From: Gammaproteobacteria bacterium
GTDB lineage: Bacteria > Pseudomonadota > Gammaproteobacteria > Pseudomonadales > Azotimanducaceae
DNA: 64,000 nt
NCBI GenBank assembly: GCA_018666555.1
Contig: JABIZD010000172.1
Location: 1-64,000, forward strand
Direction: 5' to 3'
Shown: piece by piece, positions 32,054 through 39,660 of the stretch
Numbering within the stretch: position 1 is the first letter of the stretch
Layout of the letters: each line of letters begins with the position of its first letter
Made by a program: the position numbers and the translations under genes
Notes under the pieces: model-generated
Told to the model about the DNA's origin: nothing
The model's database searches: none
Seen by the model: only the letters and a program-made list of their open reading frames with translations

Positions 32054-33379
32054 CTATTCAGGGTTGAAATGTTTTTTGAAGCCTTTCCAGCAATCGATAT
32101 AGTTGATTTGACGCAAGGGGGTGTCCATTGCCCATTGGGTCGGTTGGATGATGTAACGGGATTCCAGCATAAAAGCGATGCTACCCTGGTTATGATTCGG
32201 CACCAGTTCGGCCTGGCTTGCTTTCTCGAATACGGCTGCTTCAGGACCATGCGGGCTCATGGAATTATGTAGACTGGAACCTCCGGGTACGAAACCATCT
32301 GGTTTGGCATCATACTGACCTTTGATTAGGCCCATATATTCGGACATGACGTTGCGGTGATACCAGGGCGGCCGGAAGGTGTTTTCTGCAACCATCCAAC
32401 GAGGCGGGAAGATGACGAAATCAATATTGGCGACGCCCTCGGTCGCCGATGGAGAAGACAGTACCGTATAGATGCTGGGGTCTGGATGGTCGAAACTGAC
32501 ACTGCCCATGACATTAAAACGGGCAAGGTCATATTTGTAGGGGGCTGAATTACCGGTCCAGGCGACTACGTCGAGGGGTGAGTGATCTAAACTTGCTCGA
32601 TAAAAATGGCCGGCGAATTTACATAACAGCTCCATTTCCTGGTCGATATCCTCATAGCTGGCACAGGGGTAGATAAAGTCACGATCATTGGCATAACCAT
32701 TGGCGCCGACCGGGCCACGTTCAGGTAATACAAAAGGTGTGCCGTAGTTTTCACAAACATAGCCGCGAGCGGTTTGGTGGAGCAAGTCGACAGCAAACTT
32801 GATTCCTCTGGGTATAACAGCGATTTCCCCAACCTTCAGATGCAGCGGGCCACATTCGGTGCGCAAGAGCAGCTCGCCCTGTTCAGGGATGAACAGTAAC
32901 TCCCCATCGGCACAATAAAAATAACGGTTTTGCATGGACCGGTTAATCGCATAGAGATGAATGCCCATGCCATATTGGCCCATGGCATTGCCATTAGCGG
33001 CAATGGTAATCAGGCCGTCGATGAAATCGACGGGTTTGCCCGGGACCGCTATGGGGTCCCAGCGCAGCATATTAGGTGGGGTGGTAATCTCGGTGACAGG
33101 GCCGGTGGTGACCGATGTCTGAGCGTAGGGGGTGTAATCACCCTGCACTACTGAAGGGCGAATCCGGTAGAACCAACAGCGCCTGTTAAGTGCTCTCGGA
33201 ACAGTAAACGCTGTGCTGCTGAGTTGTTCGGCGTATAGGCCTAGAGGTGCTTTTTGGGGGCTGAACTGTCCGACGGGCAGAGCGCCTGCAATGGCTTCGC
33301 TTTCATGCTCATTGTCGAAGCCGTGCTGGTATTTGATATCTTTGACGGATTGTTGTGTTGAAGATCTGGTAGTTTCCAT
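32054..33379 (-). CDS. hmgA: Homogentisate 1,2-dioxygenase
   Basis: 441 residues, full length for HGD. It opens the ring of homogentisate to maleylacetoacetate in tyrosine and phenylalanine breakdown. Family landmarks are YQHGFDNEHESEAIAGALPVGQ at the N-terminus, GTPFVLPERGPVGANGYANDRDF in the middle, and the iron ligands in PPWYHRNVMSEYMGLIKG (His and Glu) and SLHNSMSPHGPE (His). The later pathway genes (maleylacetoacetate isomerase, fumarylacetoacetase) are not in the window. It diverges from a sodium-coupled amino acid transporter across 487 bp that carries an operator-like inverted repeat. Confidence 0.97.
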   Translation of the reverse strand: METTRSSTQQSVKDIKYQHGFDNEHESEAIAGALPVGQFSPQKAPLGLYAEQLSSTAFTVPRALNRRCWFYRIRPSVVQGDYTPYAQTSVTTGPVTEITTPPNMLRWDPIAVPGKPVDFIDGLITIAANGNAMGQYGMGIHLYAINRSMQNRYFYCADGELLFIPEQGELLLRTECGPLHLKVGEIAVIPRGIKFAVDLLHQTARGYVCENYGTPFVLPERGPVGANGYANDRDFIYPCASYEDIDQEMELLCKFAGHFYRASLDHSPLDVVAWTGNSAPYKYDLARFNVMGSVSFDHPDPSIYTVLSSPSATEGVANIDFVIFPPRWMVAENTFRPPWYHRNVMSEYMGLIKGQYDAKPDGFVPGGSSLHNSMSPHGPEAAVFEKASQAELVPNHNQGSIAFMLESRYIIQPTQWAMDTPLRQINYIDCWKGFKKHFNPE

Positions 33380-33866: not shown

Positions 33867-35228
33867 GTGAAAACCGAATATTGGTCGTCCCAAACTACCT
33901 TTCTTCTTGCTACAGCCAGTTGTTCTGTGGGTCTCGGGAATCTATGGCGCTTTCCTTATATTGCCGGTGAAAACGGCGGCGGCGCATTTGTGCTGGTGTA
34001 TCTGGCTTTTGTGTTATTTATCGGTGTGCCCCTGGTGATGGCGGAACTCGCCATCGCGCGTCGCGGACGTAGTAGTCCAGTCAAGGCTATTGTCATTGTT
34101 GCCCGCGAAGAATCTCGATCTTCGGTTTGGCATTCCATAGGCTGGATGAGTGTGCTTGGGCCTTTGCTGGCTTTAAGCTTCTACGCTGTTGTGGGCGGCT
34201 GGTCCTTGGATTATTTGCTTCAAGCAACTATGGGGGGATTTAGCAACGTTGGTGCAGAACAGGCCCAGCAACTGTTTGCCGGCTTGCTGGACTCTCCCAT
34301 GCGCATGATAGTCTCGTTTTCGCTGATGCTTGTCGGCGTTGCAGTTGTGGTCGGCACGGGGCTGCGTAAAGGCATAGAGAAGGTTTCGATGTTTATGATG
34401 CCAGCACTGGCTGTTCTTCTTGTGTTGCTTGCTGGCTACGCCGCAGTGGTTGGTGCCTCAGCCCAGGCCTGGCAGTTCATGTTTGATGCGGATTTTTCAA
34501 AACTGAACCCTGAAGTTATTCTAATGGCCTTGGGGCAGTCGTTGTTCTCAATCGCGATTGGAACAGGCGCATTGCTCGCTTATGGAGCCTACCTGCCCAA
34601 AGACGTTTCGATTCCCAGGGCAGCCTGGGTGATAGCACTGGCTGATACAACGGCGGCTGTTCTGGCAGGGTTACTTATTTTCCCGATTGTTTTCGCTTCG
34701 GGCCTTGATGTCAGCGAAGGCCCCGGTCTGATCTTTGTGACCATGCCGGTCGCTTTTGCTAACATGCCTGGAGCACAAGTGGTTGGCCCGTTATTCTTTT
34801 TACTGGTGTTTTTTGCTGCCTTTACATCTGGAATTGGTATGTTGGAACCCTTCGTTTCCTGGGCCGAGGAGCAGCCGGGCCTGAATCGTCCCAAGGCCGC
34901 TGCAGGCACTGTGGTTATCGTTTGGTTGCTGGGCCTGGCAGCGGTATTTTCATTTAATATCTGGAAAGATTTCACACCCCTGGACATGATCCCGCAGTTA
35001 GAGGGCCGAACCGTATTCTCGATTCTTGACTATGGCATCTCCAATATCGTTTTACCGATTAATGCGCTCTTGATAGCGCTGTTTGCTGGTTGGGCTATTA
35101 AAGGTAGCAATATGCGTCGTGAGCTTGGCTTGGAGTCGAGCTATGGCTGGTGGGCTTGGCAGTTCTCTGTTCGGGTGTTGGCGCCGGTCGCTGTATTGTG
35201 TGTGTTCCTGTTTAATATTGCCGACTGA
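33867..35228 (+). CDS. Neurotransmitter:sodium symporter (NSS) family transporter
   Basis: 453 residues with about 11-12 TM helices. The NSS signature at the N-terminus is SCSVGLGNLWRFPYIAGENGGGAFVLVYLAFVLFIGVPLVMAELAIARRGR, whose unwound TM1 region binds Na+ and substrate. LMALGQSLFSIAIGTGALLAYGAYL is the TM6 counterpart. Bacterial members of this type (LeuT, MhsT, Tyt1) import amino acids with sodium. Placement beside hmgA suggests tyrosine or phenylalanine as substrate, by inference. Translation starts at GTG 33867, five bases after AAGGCGG. Just after the stop is a 13-bp tandem repeat. Confidence 0.93.
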   Translation: MKTEYWSSQTTFLLATASCSVGLGNLWRFPYIAGENGGGAFVLVYLAFVLFIGVPLVMAELAIARRGRSSPVKAIVIVAREESRSSVWHSIGWMSVLGPLLALSFYAVVGGWSLDYLLQATMGGFSNVGAEQAQQLFAGLLDSPMRMIVSFSLMLVGVAVVVGTGLRKGIEKVSMFMMPALAVLLVLLAGYAAVVGASAQAWQFMFDADFSKLNPEVILMALGQSLFSIAIGTGALLAYGAYLPKDVSIPRAAWVIALADTTAAVLAGLLIFPIVFASGLDVSEGPGLIFVTMPVAFANMPGAQVVGPLFFLLVFFAAFTSGIGMLEPFVSWAEEQPGLNRPKAAAGTVVIVWLLGLAAVFSFNIWKDFTPLDMIPQLEGRTVFSILDYGISNIVLPINALLIALFAGWAIKGSNMRRELGLESSYGWWAWQFSVRVLAPVAVLCVFLFNIAD

Positions 35229-35476: not shown

Positions 35477-36382
35477 TCACTGAACTTGTCTTAGATCTGT
35501 TTGGCCGGCATCAAAGTTGTTGAGTATTTCGGGGCAAGCGGTTCCTTGCGGCGCACTTCCCAGGGTCAGTATGTCCAGGAAGGTGGTGGTGGCGAAGGTA
35601 GCAAACCCGGGTACACCGTTGGCAATAGTGGTATCCACAATGGCATGTTCTACGGATACCTGGTAGGCATTTTCTGGTATCAGGTGTTCAGCCGGGATAA
35701 CGAATTGTGTTGCAGAGTAATCCAGGTAAGGCTTGTTCTCGAAAGGGCGTCCGCTATGTGAACGACGTTCACCGTGGCAGTTGCCCATAATGACGAATAC
35801 CAGGTCGTTAACGATTCCCAACGGGTCCTCGTCGCCTTGTTTGAATTCGCTCCAACTTACCTGAAGCGCCATATCCGCTCGAATCATGCGTGGTAAAACT
35901 GGTTTACCTCCCTGCGATAAAATGATTTGTGGCGCATCCGGTATGCGCGAACGATTTGAGTGAGAGTTGCTTAGTGCGATCGTTTGTTCTACCGGACCCG
36001 TAGAGGGCGTGTCGTAACGAAATATATAGTTACCATCCGGATAGTGGTTTTCAAGTTCGGTTTCAGCGGCATATCTGCCACCATGCATTTCAAGAGCATA
36101 GCCGCTGTCTGAAAAGGCAATTGCGTCAGTTGGTTTGCCAGGCGTTAACAATCCAGACTGATTTATGACGCCGTTGGGCTGAACAAATATTTCTGCGAAA
36201 AAATGATAATTGAGGGCTTCGACCCGACTATTATCGAATTGCCTGAAGTTAGCTGTTTTACCGGCGACGATAAAAGTAATGTCTGTCTGTAGCTGGGGTG
36301 CTTGATTTGCCGCAGCGCCAGCGAGACTGGAACAGGACATAGCCAGTGCGGATAATAAGACTGCAAGGTGCTTGAATATCAT
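35477..36382 (-). CDS. Secreted protein of unknown family
   Basis: I do not recognise a family. About 301 residues from ATG 36382, beginning with a signal peptide (basic FKH, hydrophobic LAVLLSALAM, then SCSSLAGAAA), so it is exported. A lipoprotein is possible but the sequence before the Cys is not a good lipobox. The mature part is rich in predicted beta structure and polar residues, with segments such as YPDGNYIFRYDTPS and GIVNDLVFVIMGNCHG, and has two Cys far apart. Its ATG overlaps the stop of the upstream reductive-dehalogenase-like gene (ATGA), so the two are translationally coupled and probably work together. Confidence 0.6.
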   Translation of the reverse strand: MIFKHLAVLLSALAMSCSSLAGAAANQAPQLQTDITFIVAGKTANFRQFDNSRVEALNYHFFAEIFVQPNGVINQSGLLTPGKPTDAIAFSDSGYALEMHGGRYAAETELENHYPDGNYIFRYDTPSTGPVEQTIALSNSHSNRSRIPDAPQIILSQGGKPVLPRMIRADMALQVSWSEFKQGDEDPLGIVNDLVFVIMGNCHGERRSHSGRPFENKPYLDYSATQFVIPAEHLIPENAYQVSVEHAIVDTTIANGVPGFATFATTTFLDILTLGSAPQGTACPEILNNFDAGQTDLRQVQ

Positions 36383-37560
36383 GGTTTTCCGCTCCACCAC
36401 CAGGTTGATTTATGACGACGTCTGTTTACCAGCTTATCATCGAGCCAGAGGGCCAGTCGACGCAAGCAAGAATTAGCAATGTTGCGCCAGACCCGGTTGT
36501 ACCATCGGCGATAGTCTCGGTTAAAGGGACAGACGCGAATACAGATGGAGCAGTCGGTATTCTGATTGACCCAGAATTTGAAACATTTTTCCGCGTCGAC
36601 AGTCCATTTTGTTACCCCGATAAGATTGGAGCGATTGTGAGTTTTTTGACTTGGTGGTTCAAAGGGAATAGCTGCAGGGGGGCACCCCTTGGCGCATCGA
36701 TCGCAGATCTGGCAGAAGCTCTGGACGCCTATTTTTTTTGGTGTGTCGTACGTTAGCGGTATATCAGTAAAAATCCTGCCTAATCTAAGTCGCGGTCCGA
36801 ATTCAGGTGTAATAAGCAGGCTATGACGACCAACCTCTCCAAACCCGGCCTGTACAGCCAGTGGTATTGCCAGGGAGGAATCGTTCATGGTGGCATAGGC
36901 GCGATAGCCAAGATTACGTATATATTGGGCTAAAGTAAGTAAGGTGAGTGCATCAAAGGAATAACCCATGCCAGTGGCGCTTCCAGATAATGCTGAAGGT
37001 ACCGTTTTGGTAAGGTCCTCATCCATGGATTCGCCAAGGACGATAACATTAGGGAGGTCGCCTGGAACCTCATTGGCCCTACTATCCAGGGTTTGTTCAT
37101 TGAATGTACCGCTATACATCCAGCGTTCATCAAAGGCACAGAAACCGACCAGGTCTGCACCACATAATTTTGCGACCTTTCTTACATCGGCACTGGCTTG
37201 TTCGGGGCTTTCGAAGGCATAGGGCTCTGGCCAGCCGGCTTCATGTGAGGAGAAATAGTCGAAGAAGCCTTCTTTTCGACCTGTATCTTGCCTGCGTATA
37301 TCGCGCAGGACATTGGTTATATGCCAGGTGGCATTGCGAAGCGCATAATCTCTCTGGCTGAAGCCATCAGTCCGGCGAGACCGTGCTTCCGGCATGAAGT
37401 AACCGTTAAAAAAAGCCTCGGCTTTATCTGATTGCACGGCGGGGTCCCAGAGTGACCGACAATAGATATCGTTTTTCTGGTTAAATTGCTGGAAGTCTTC
37501 TGATACGTCAAAACCCGTTAAATCATCTATTGGTTTGTTAAAGGGCATGTCAGGGGTCAT
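36379..37560 (-). CDS. Reductive dehalogenase-family corrinoid/Fe-S protein
   Basis: 393 residues. Two 4Fe-4S sites lie at the C-terminal end: Cys283, 286, 289 and 293 (CQICDRCAKGCP), and Cys326, 337, 340 and 344 (C-x10-CSICIRVCP). Before them, GYRAYATMNDSSLAIPLAVQAGFGEVGR and LLITPEFGPRLRLGRIFTDIPL match the corrinoid-binding region of reductive dehalogenases (PceA, NpRdhA) better than epoxyqueuosine reductase, which lacks the TPEFGPR segment. There is no Tat signal or RdhB anchor, so it appears cytoplasmic. The basic, Trp-rich C-terminus (RRRHKSTWWW) is unusual. Substrate, electron donor and even dehalogenase activity are unproven. The gene is the first of a two-gene operon. Confidence 0.75.
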   Translation of the reverse strand: MTPDMPFNKPIDDLTGFDVSEDFQQFNQKNDIYCRSLWDPAVQSDKAEAFFNGYFMPEARSRRTDGFSQRDYALRNATWHITNVLRDIRRQDTGRKEGFFDYFSSHEAGWPEPYAFESPEQASADVRKVAKLCGADLVGFCAFDERWMYSGTFNEQTLDSRANEVPGDLPNVIVLGESMDEDLTKTVPSALSGSATGMGYSFDALTLLTLAQYIRNLGYRAYATMNDSSLAIPLAVQAGFGEVGRHSLLITPEFGPRLRLGRIFTDIPLTYDTPKKIGVQSFCQICDRCAKGCPPAAIPFEPPSQKTHNRSNLIGVTKWTVDAEKCFKFWVNQNTDCSICIRVCPFNRDYRRWYNRVWRNIANSCLRRLALWLDDKLVNRRRHKSTWWWSGKP

Positions 37561-37851
37561 CCATATGGGCAGTAATGAGTATTACCCAATGTTATAGGGG
37601 CATCAAGCCGGGGTCGGTTAAATTAATGACTCGATTGCATGATGGTTAATGGACTATAGCAAGGGTTGGTTTTAAGACAGTCAGGATGGTGCTGGTCTGA
37701 TCATCAAGCTATGCATTTTTTCCCTTAAGCTAACCTGGTGTATCTGAACCGTGACCTGATATGCCTCAACTGGGAGCAAGCAATGATTACGTGTGGCGGT
37801 CATCGCTACTGTCTTGTACCATCACTTCAGGAAAATAATGGAGAACTCAAG
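37561..37851. other. Divergent intergenic region
   Basis: About 290 bases between the dehalogenase-like gene and the acyl-CoA synthetase. An imperfect inverted repeat (GGG..TAAT/ATTA..CCC) lies at about 37567-37587. An in-frame upstream extension of the synthetase from 37738 has no ribosome-binding site and is not accepted as coding. Confidence 0.4.
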
Positions 37852-39660
37852 ATGGGACTGATTGATATAGCATCGACGCTGGCCGAGGTTCCTACGTTAC
37901 TGAAGCTGAAAAAGGGCATGATTCCGAAAGGCCTGGATGTCACAGACTGTTTTGGTGCGAGGGTTCAGGGTAATGCAGAGCGTTACCCAGATCGTCCGGC
38001 TGTCTTATTTGAGAATCAGTCAGTTACCTGGTCGGAGTTTAACGCGCTGGCTAATAGATATGCTCATTATATGATCCAGCAGGGCGTGGAGCGCGGTGAT
38101 ACGGTTAGTGTCATCATGGAAAACCGAATCGAATTTCTGGCACTGTTGGTGGGACTCAATAAAATTGGTGTCACTGCGGGACTGATTAATACGAATCTCA
38201 CGGGCAAGCCGTTAACTCACTGTATTAAGGTGACGGATTCCCGGAAGTGTATATTCGGCAGTGAAATCGCCGCGGCTCTGAATGAGGTAAAAAGTGAGCT
38301 GGACCTTGAAGAAGGTGAAGATTACTTTGTTATGCCAGATGGTGGACAAGAAAATGCGCTTAACTGGGCTAAAGATTTTGTCGAAGGCGCAGCGGATGCC
38401 GATAGCCTAAACCCGGCAGAAACGGCGCATACCAGTTTGGGAGAAATCGCGCTGTATATATTCACGTCAGGCACAACAGGCTTACCGAAAGCGGCGGTGC
38501 TGTCCAACCGGCGTTACCTTATGAGTGCTGATATGTCAGCCATGGCAGGTTATAAATGTACGGAAAAAGATCGACTGTATATCTGTTTGCCACTTTACCA
38601 TGGCACTGGGTTAATGGTCGGAGCGGGCGCTGCATTTACATCCGGTGCCAGCATGTTTGTTCGAAGGAAATTTTCGGCTTCTAATTTTCTCAAAGAAGTT
38701 CGCGAAAATAGTTGTACCTGCCTGGTTTATATTGGTGAGTTGTGTCGGTATCTGTCAAATACTGAGGCTAAGCCTGATGATCACAAAAACCCGCTTCGAG
38801 CGATGATGGGTAATGGTCTGAGACCCGATGTCTGGAAGGGTTTTAAGCAACGTTTTGGTATTAAGCGGGTGGCCGAATTCTATGGTGCTTCAGAAGGTAA
38901 TGTCGCATTTGCAAACTTGATGAATAAAGACTGCACGGTTGGTATGACTTCTGCCGAAGTGGCTTTAGTTGAATACGACGTTGACAACGATGAGATAGTC
39001 AGAGACGCCCAGAAACGGTGTGTCCAGGTTGTTCCCGGAGAACCAGGTTTGTTGTTAGGGAAAATTACCGAAGATACTGTTTTTGAGGGCTATACGGATA
39101 AGCAGGCAACTGAAAAGAAGATCATACGAGACGTATTTTTAGAAGGTGATGCCTGGTTTAATTCTGGTGATCTGATGTCAACGGTGGATGTCGGTTTCAG
39201 CTTAGGCTATCCCCATTATCAATTCGTCGACCGCGTCGGCGACACGTTTCGCTGGAAGTCAGAAAATGTGTCGACTAATGAAGTCGGTGAAATTCTCAAT
39301 GGCTTTGAACAGATTAAATTCTGTAATGTTTATGGAGTTGAAATCGCTGGGGCGGATGGTCGAGCTGGAATGGCAGCAATCACGCTGGTGGATGGCCTTG
39401 AGGCTTTCGACCTGGCAGCATTTTCCCAGTACATACGGGCGCAGTTACCAGCCTATGCGATTCCTGTTTTCCTGAGAGTGCAGACAGAAATCGATGTTAC
39501 CGGGACCTTCAAGATGGTTAAGGGTGAGTTGCGAAAGCAGGCTTATAAGCTATCTTTATTCAGTGACCCAGTTTATGTTTTGCTGCCAGGTGAGCCAGAC
39601 TATCAATGGCTGAATGAAGATATTCTGGCAACCATCGAAGCCGCTCAGGCTGGGTTTTAG
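37852..39660 (+). CDS. FATP-type long-chain acyl-CoA synthetase
   Basis: About 602 residues of the ANL superfamily. Motifs in order: the AMP-binding P-loop YIFTSGTTGLPKAAVLSN (about residues 200-217), EFYGASEGNVAFAN, WFNSGDLM, and VDRVGDTFRWKSENVSTNEVGEIL with the FATP/VLACS form of the hinge motif. FKMVKGELRKQAY near the C-terminus holds the catalytic Lys. It converts a long-chain, branched or steroid-side-chain acid to its CoA thioester using ATP. ATG 37852 follows GGAGAA and begins the usual FATP N-terminus. It diverges from the dehalogenase-like operon; the acid it serves is unknown. Confidence 0.92.
   Translation: MGLIDIASTLAEVPTLLKLKKGMIPKGLDVTDCFGARVQGNAERYPDRPAVLFENQSVTWSEFNALANRYAHYMIQQGVERGDTVSVIMENRIEFLALLVGLNKIGVTAGLINTNLTGKPLTHCIKVTDSRKCIFGSEIAAALNEVKSELDLEEGEDYFVMPDGGQENALNWAKDFVEGAADADSLNPAETAHTSLGEIALYIFTSGTTGLPKAAVLSNRRYLMSADMSAMAGYKCTEKDRLYICLPLYHGTGLMVGAGAAFTSGASMFVRRKFSASNFLKEVRENSCTCLVYIGELCRYLSNTEAKPDDHKNPLRAMMGNGLRPDVWKGFKQRFGIKRVAEFYGASEGNVAFANLMNKDCTVGMTSAEVALVEYDVDNDEIVRDAQKRCVQVVPGEPGLLLGKITEDTVFEGYTDKQATEKKIIRDVFLEGDAWFNSGDLMSTVDVGFSLGYPHYQFVDRVGDTFRWKSENVSTNEVGEILNGFEQIKFCNVYGVEIAGADGRAGMAAITLVDGLEAFDLAAFSQYIRAQLPAYAIPVFLRVQTEIDVTGTFKMVKGELRKQAYKLSLFSDPVYVLLPGEPDYQWLNEDILATIEAAQAGF

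Follow-up and report, generated by a model that had tools for sequence, protein, structure and literature searches.

A Tat-less reductive dehalogenase family protein with a predicted cytosolic role, and the gene neighbourhood of its relatives, in an Azotimanducaceae genome

What does a reductive dehalogenase (RDase) family protein do in a genome of aerobic appearance when it lacks an export leader, a membrane anchor and a fused reductase? We addressed this question for the gene rdhA in the window, i.e., the 64,000-nucleotide stretch of contig JABIZD010000172.1 (Azotimanducaceae, Gammaproteobacteria) that was analyzed. The first-pass annotation had described a soluble, Tat-less RDase-family protein that was neither of the respiratory nor of the self-sufficient catabolic type, and this description was borne out by profiles, tree, fold, leader and RdhB searches and the C-terminus. 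Its coordinates were exact; the strand, which it had not given, is minus. The gene and its motifs are as follows.

36379..37560, minus: rdhA, Tat-less cytoplasmic reductive dehalogenase, 393 amino acids (TIGR02486 and PF13486 above cut-off, PceA fold, tree)
36784..36963, minus: catalytic region with Tyr200, Asn226 and Arg259 (alignment to 4uqu and 4ras; kept in 46/46)
36679..36714, minus: first 4Fe-4S motif, residues 283–294, CQICDRCAKGCP (four cysteines invariant in 46/46 clade members)
36526..36552, minus: second 4Fe-4S motif, residues 337–345, CSICIRVCP, with C326 upstream (invariant; published positions of Ros_A3X954)

The rdhA product is a full member of the RDase family. It scored 176.5 bits against the NCBIfam RDH model TIGR02486 (cut-off 160.35), exceeded the Pfam cut-offs for PF13486 and Fer4_16 and reached only 57.8 bits with the QueG model TIGR00276 (cut-off 200). 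Sequence matches in the PDB were PceA-type RDases (2e-50 and 1.7e-43), NpRdhA (1.6e-27) and QueG (4.4e-8). Identity to solved RDases is about 20–29%, and specificity can hence not be read from them. An AlphaFold2 model was built on a 39-sequence alignment (pLDDT 88, pTM 0.90) and compared using Foldseek and VIA-align, where RDases ranked first at nearly full length. Z values were 39.8 for the RDH 8q4h and 37.1 for Sulfurospirillum multivorans PceA, spanning 331–375 residues, 31.6 for NpRdhA and 14.7 for QueG, with a match of about 210 residues. The predicted structure is thus a PceA-like fold end to end (Z 35–40), in contrast to the low value for QueG.

Phylogenetic analysis against PceA, NpRdhA, BhbA and QueG placed the protein in a clade of 46 to 52 rows, whose members have about 390 residues, separate from all four references. 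Support for this clade was moderate (90/90, and 91/74 with more rows in the 52-row tree), and the deeper order of the tree is unsure because some reference rows are fragments or long branches. The protein's own subclade of 22 rows had a support of 100/99; H106, N83, Y54 and M56 are residues specific to this subclade. A placement within QueG, one outcome that the first-pass annotation had named as speaking against its proposal, appeared neither in profile nor in tree nor in fold. NpRdhA and BhbA formed a clade of their own with the rdhA product outside. The genome of the window encodes a second RDase (L076 on G000:C111, 3075–5036), by tree of the NpRdhA/BhbA kind, which is cut at the contig end and has only about 113 residues beyond the RDase core. 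Six further RDH relatives of about 320–350 residues (L080, L082, L084, L085, L086 and L077) formed a separate group apart from all named RDases and have an N-terminal SGN.(V/I)NGLGE-like motif in common.

As had been noted before, the rdhA product had no Tat motif; a hydrophobic N-terminal stretch was likewise absent. A missed leader or a frameshift was considered and rejected: the frame opens seven codons upstream, and the relatives' starts lie at about the same place. In the leader search among relatives nearly all were without a Tat signal; an RR-type string or hydrophobic stretch occurred in the upstream frame of L038, L047, L050, L051 and L054, and of L057 and L067. The missing RdhB anchor was confirmed between 33.5 and 40.5 kb, where the sole small open reading frame with at least two membrane segments was a 43-codon frame within another gene. 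There is also no extra ferredoxin or flavin domain, i.e., the 393-residue protein ends where PceA ends, at the end of the RDase core. In L043, L044 and L048, open frames of 549–667 amino acids gave the appearance of a fused N-terminal domain, but the added residues were judged by eye to resemble read-through of a GC-rich non-coding frame; the conserved part begins at the usual position in all three.

Tyr246, Asn272 and Arg305 are the residues that act in PceA catalysis, and Tyr200, Asn226 and Arg259 of the rdhA product align with them. Both C-terminal 4Fe-4S motifs noted earlier are present, and the cluster cysteines were invariant among the 46 sequences. The C-terminus RRRHKSTWWW, on the other hand, had been called odd and turned out to be an ordinary RDase end: W389 does not vary within the clade and is also found in PceA, NpRdhA and BhbA. 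The full C-terminal stretch reads RRRHKSTWWWSGKP.

A Tat-less RDase from Roseobacter sp. MED193, Ros_A3X954, debrominates 2,6-dibromophenol; its Fe-S motifs are CDICTKCADACP at 283–294 and CAICMRVCP at 337–345, its 72%-identical homologue from Pararhodobacter aggregans (A0A2T7UTL8) deiodinates 2,4,6-triiodophenol, and oxygen abolished Ros_A3X954 activity (2026 paper, PMC13101508). A role in an aerobic cell hence needs protection or micro-oxic conditions. Like the rdhA product, both proteins are Tat-less, have PF13486 at about 170–269 and Fe-S motifs at 283–294 and 337–345, and lack a reductase domain. In contrast to the rdhA product, the bearers of the Ros_A3X954 motif strings belong to another subclade, the gene context is a different one, and a substrate, 2,6-dibromophenol, is known. 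The exact Ros_A3X954 motif strings were found in L087 and L089, members of a different family in the same phylum, which are 46–47% identical to the rdhA product and fall into the 52-row clade with it at moderate support (91/74). T7RdhA/A6RdhA from Acidimicrobiaceae is PceA-like, and binding of corrinoid and of two clusters has been shown for it; its proposed PFAS substrate rests on docking and on the reported activity of a homologue (PMC10008544). Mapped by residue numbers, the set of its eight listed pocket residues F47, F64, Y65, Y68, R89, W93, F340 and W343 corresponds to Y33, F50, F51, Y54, R75, W79, F327 and W330 of the rdhA product, all aromatic or Arg, at a nearly constant offset of 13–14. 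We infer kinship with Ros_A3X954 and T7RdhA from their layout, motif strings and residue numbering; judged by sequence, the rdhA product is of this already described kind of about 390 residues with no Tat signal and no fused domain. New here is the gene context of its subclade.

S. multivorans PceA matches the rdhA product in fold end to end, in the Tyr/Asn/Arg set and in both clusters at about 25% identity; unlike the rdhA product, it is Tat-exported and membrane-associated. The catabolic enzymes NpRdhA and BhbA are cytosolic, use B12 and two clusters and occur in aerobic hosts, as would the rdhA product, but carry an RDH-like module at the N-terminus and a reductase at the C-terminus; NpRdhA Lys488 occupies the position of Arg259. 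QueG, the epoxyqueuosine reductase, has B12, two 4Fe-4S clusters and the core fold in common with RDases.

CobS is required for cobalamin synthesis. The first-pass annotation had asked for genes of cobalamin synthesis or uptake: CobS was not found in the host genome (97.6% complete), and for uptake we found a cobalamin riboswitch (105.9 bits) upstream of a TonB receptor that is BtuB-like by eye. From these observations taken together, the host probably imports B12.

The gene is widely but thinly distributed. The genome collection contained 44 relatives at 45–92% identity from several phyla, among them Halieaceae-type Gammaproteobacteria, one being the cultured Luminiphilus syltensis NOR5-1B (locus L036), as well as Emcibacter, Rhodospirillaceae, Burkholderiales, Acidobacteriota, Gemmatimonadota, Marinimicrobia, a Lewinellaceae bacterium and Chloroflexota. 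Occurrence was patchy: rdhA was present in 10 of the 206 host-family genomes and in 3 of the 15 searched genomes of the host genus; a wider sample of 390 genomes of the order had no additional member besides the window genome. A same-family relative has a decayed remnant (G030:C163:16134-16499, residues 8–129, in-frame TAG), which fits patchy loss.

In the window, rdhA overlaps the gene of a secreted protein, followed by a symporter gene and hmgA, with an acyl-CoA synthetase gene on the other side.

35477..36382, minus: secreted protein of about 300 amino acids without Pfam or NCBIfam match; its start overlaps the rdhA stop (ATGA), read directly
33867..35228, plus: SNF-family sodium:amino-acid-type symporter (PF00209; same position in L027–L029)
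32054..33379, minus: hmgA, homogentisate 1,2-dioxygenase of tyrosine catabolism (TIGR01015, 633 bits, cut-off 510.75)
37738..39660, plus: long-chain-acyl-CoA synthetase, divergent neighbour (NF006134, 728.6 bits, cut-off 625)

A homologue of the secreted protein lies 3' of rdhA in eight loci. Fumarylacetoacetase and maleylacetoacetate isomerase genes adjoin hmgA in L027–L029. The adjacency of the SNF symporter alone carries little weight because SNF genes are multicopy, and a functional tie of the acyl-CoA synthetase to rdhA is uncertain. Acyl-CoA ligase as a universal partner was likewise given little weight: ligase genes neighbour rdhA in 15 loci, but this count lumps different subfamilies of a ubiquitous superfamily.

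Ten subclade genomes have a strong copy of a Trp/Tyr permease gene (PF03222), and in 8 of them it was located no more than about 6 kb from rdhA; the remaining two are interrupted by contig breaks, with fragments compatible with the same layout. Five arrangements occurred among the subclade loci, some of them operon-like.

L038: permease upstream of rdhA, same strand, gap below 30 bp
L044: permease downstream of rdhA, overlapping
L037/L070: permease divergent from rdhA, adjacent
L032/L033: permease a few genes from rdhA, past MarR, PrnB and class-V aminotransferase genes
L036: permease about 5.5 kb from rdhA, past sulfatase genes

The L032 permease exceeds the cut-off of the equivalog model for tryptophan permease. 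Such proximity would have a negligible chance if genes were placed at random; allowing for shared ancestry, the count reduces to about five events, not eight, and inherited synteny weakens it further. The closest relatives of the window locus, L027 and L029, have no PF03222 permease, and the link was not present outside the subclade. PrnB-family genes adjoin rdhA in five loci (L030, L032–L035), lie about 16 kb away in Luminiphilus and were absent from 14 control genomes. The named member of this family acts on 7-chlorotryptophan. Loci outside the subclade have acyl-CoA ligase, CoA-transferase or polyamine-type ABC transporter genes beside rdhA. In Chloroflexota MAGs (L046–L055), the homologue lies 3' of apparent putrescine/spermidine-type ABC transporter genes in a strongly conserved gene order. 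In L062 (10751–12525), and also in L056, L064 and L065, tandem Fe-S proteins of about 300–360 residues with weak RDH and QueG similarity adjoin rdhA and an acyl-CoA ligase gene; these pairs are possibly electron-transfer partners or further reductases.

We propose, at a probability of roughly 0.8, that the rdhA product acts on an aromatic halide as a cytosolic corrinoid RDase. By analogy with PceA and NpRdhA, a soluble carrier of low potential, either ferredoxin or flavodoxin, would reduce both 4Fe-4S clusters, which would pass electrons to the imported cobalamin, and the reduced cobalt would attack the carbon-halogen bond, or activate it electronically, in an aromatic substrate that is probably of the ortho-halogenated phenol type. 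The proton would come from Tyr200, which Arg259 would polarise, and the halogen would depart as bromide (or chloride or iodide). The role would be assimilation or detoxification, not respiration, with the dehalogenated product passing into aerobic catabolism.

A respiratory-type RDase that has lost its former leader and still conserves energy would agree with the PceA-type catalytic set, which has Asn226 and Arg259 and not the lysine of NpRdhA, and with the first rank of the PceA-type fold. We regard it as very improbable, since neither the protein nor nearly all of its relatives have a Tat signal, no RdhB gene was found in the region searched, and the host has genes for complex I, homogentisate dioxygenase and P450. 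Somewhat less remote, though still unlikely, is a B12/Fe-S reductase of another bond, e.g., with a QueG-like epoxide or other reduction. QueG has the same core fold and is B12-dependent, and some QueG/RDH-like proteins occur near relatives; against this, the protein stays far below the QueG profile cut-off, tree and fold side with RDases, the RDase Tyr/Asn/Arg set is kept and the characterised kin dehalogenate.

Within dehalogenation of an aromatic halide, two kinds of natural substrate were weighed. Drawing entirely on gene neighbourhood, we tentatively suggest, as the leading candidate, that members of the 22-row subclade act on a halogenated aromatic amino acid or a close derivative, because Trp/Tyr permease, PrnB-family, SNF symporter and homogentisate-pathway genes lie near rdhA. 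Conceivable substrates, with the same reserve, are 3-bromotyrosine, 3,5-dibromotyrosine, bromotryptophan and closely related derivatives. The amino acid would be imported by an aromatic-amino-acid carrier and dehalogenated in the cytoplasm, and the freed tyrosine or tryptophan would be catabolised. Our literature search found no relevant paper tying RDases to halotyrosine, halotryptophan or Halieaceae. It is also possible, if short of likely, that the enzyme dehalogenates simple halophenols or other marine organohalides, such as algal or sponge bromophenols, and that the amino-acid gene context is incidental. Turnover of 2,6-dibromophenol by Ros_A3X954 and of 2,4,6-triiodophenol by the P. aggregans homologue, the acyl-CoA ligase and CoA-transferase genes next to rdhA in other subclades and the lack of a PF03222 permease in L027 and L029 point in this direction. 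However, simple halophenols as substrates would leave the permease in five arrangements and the PrnB-family and homogentisate genes unexplained.

The sea is rich in natural organobromines, among them brominated derivatives of tyrosine and tryptophan that come from sponges and ascidians. To our knowledge, debromination by soluble RDases of ordinary aerobic marine bacteria was shown only recently. The occurrence of the clade in several phyla, together with its patchiness from one close relative to the next, suggests that debromination is a widespread trait with frequent gain or loss. A subclade linked by neighbourhood to uptake and breakdown of aromatic amino acids would give such RDases a natural substrate. 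If the amino-acid reading is true, the enzyme would be a counterpart of iodotyrosine deiodinase that depends on B12 where the latter uses flavin. The neighbour genes of the relatives hint, without proof, that halogenated aromatic amino acids may be dehalogenated so as to serve as food.
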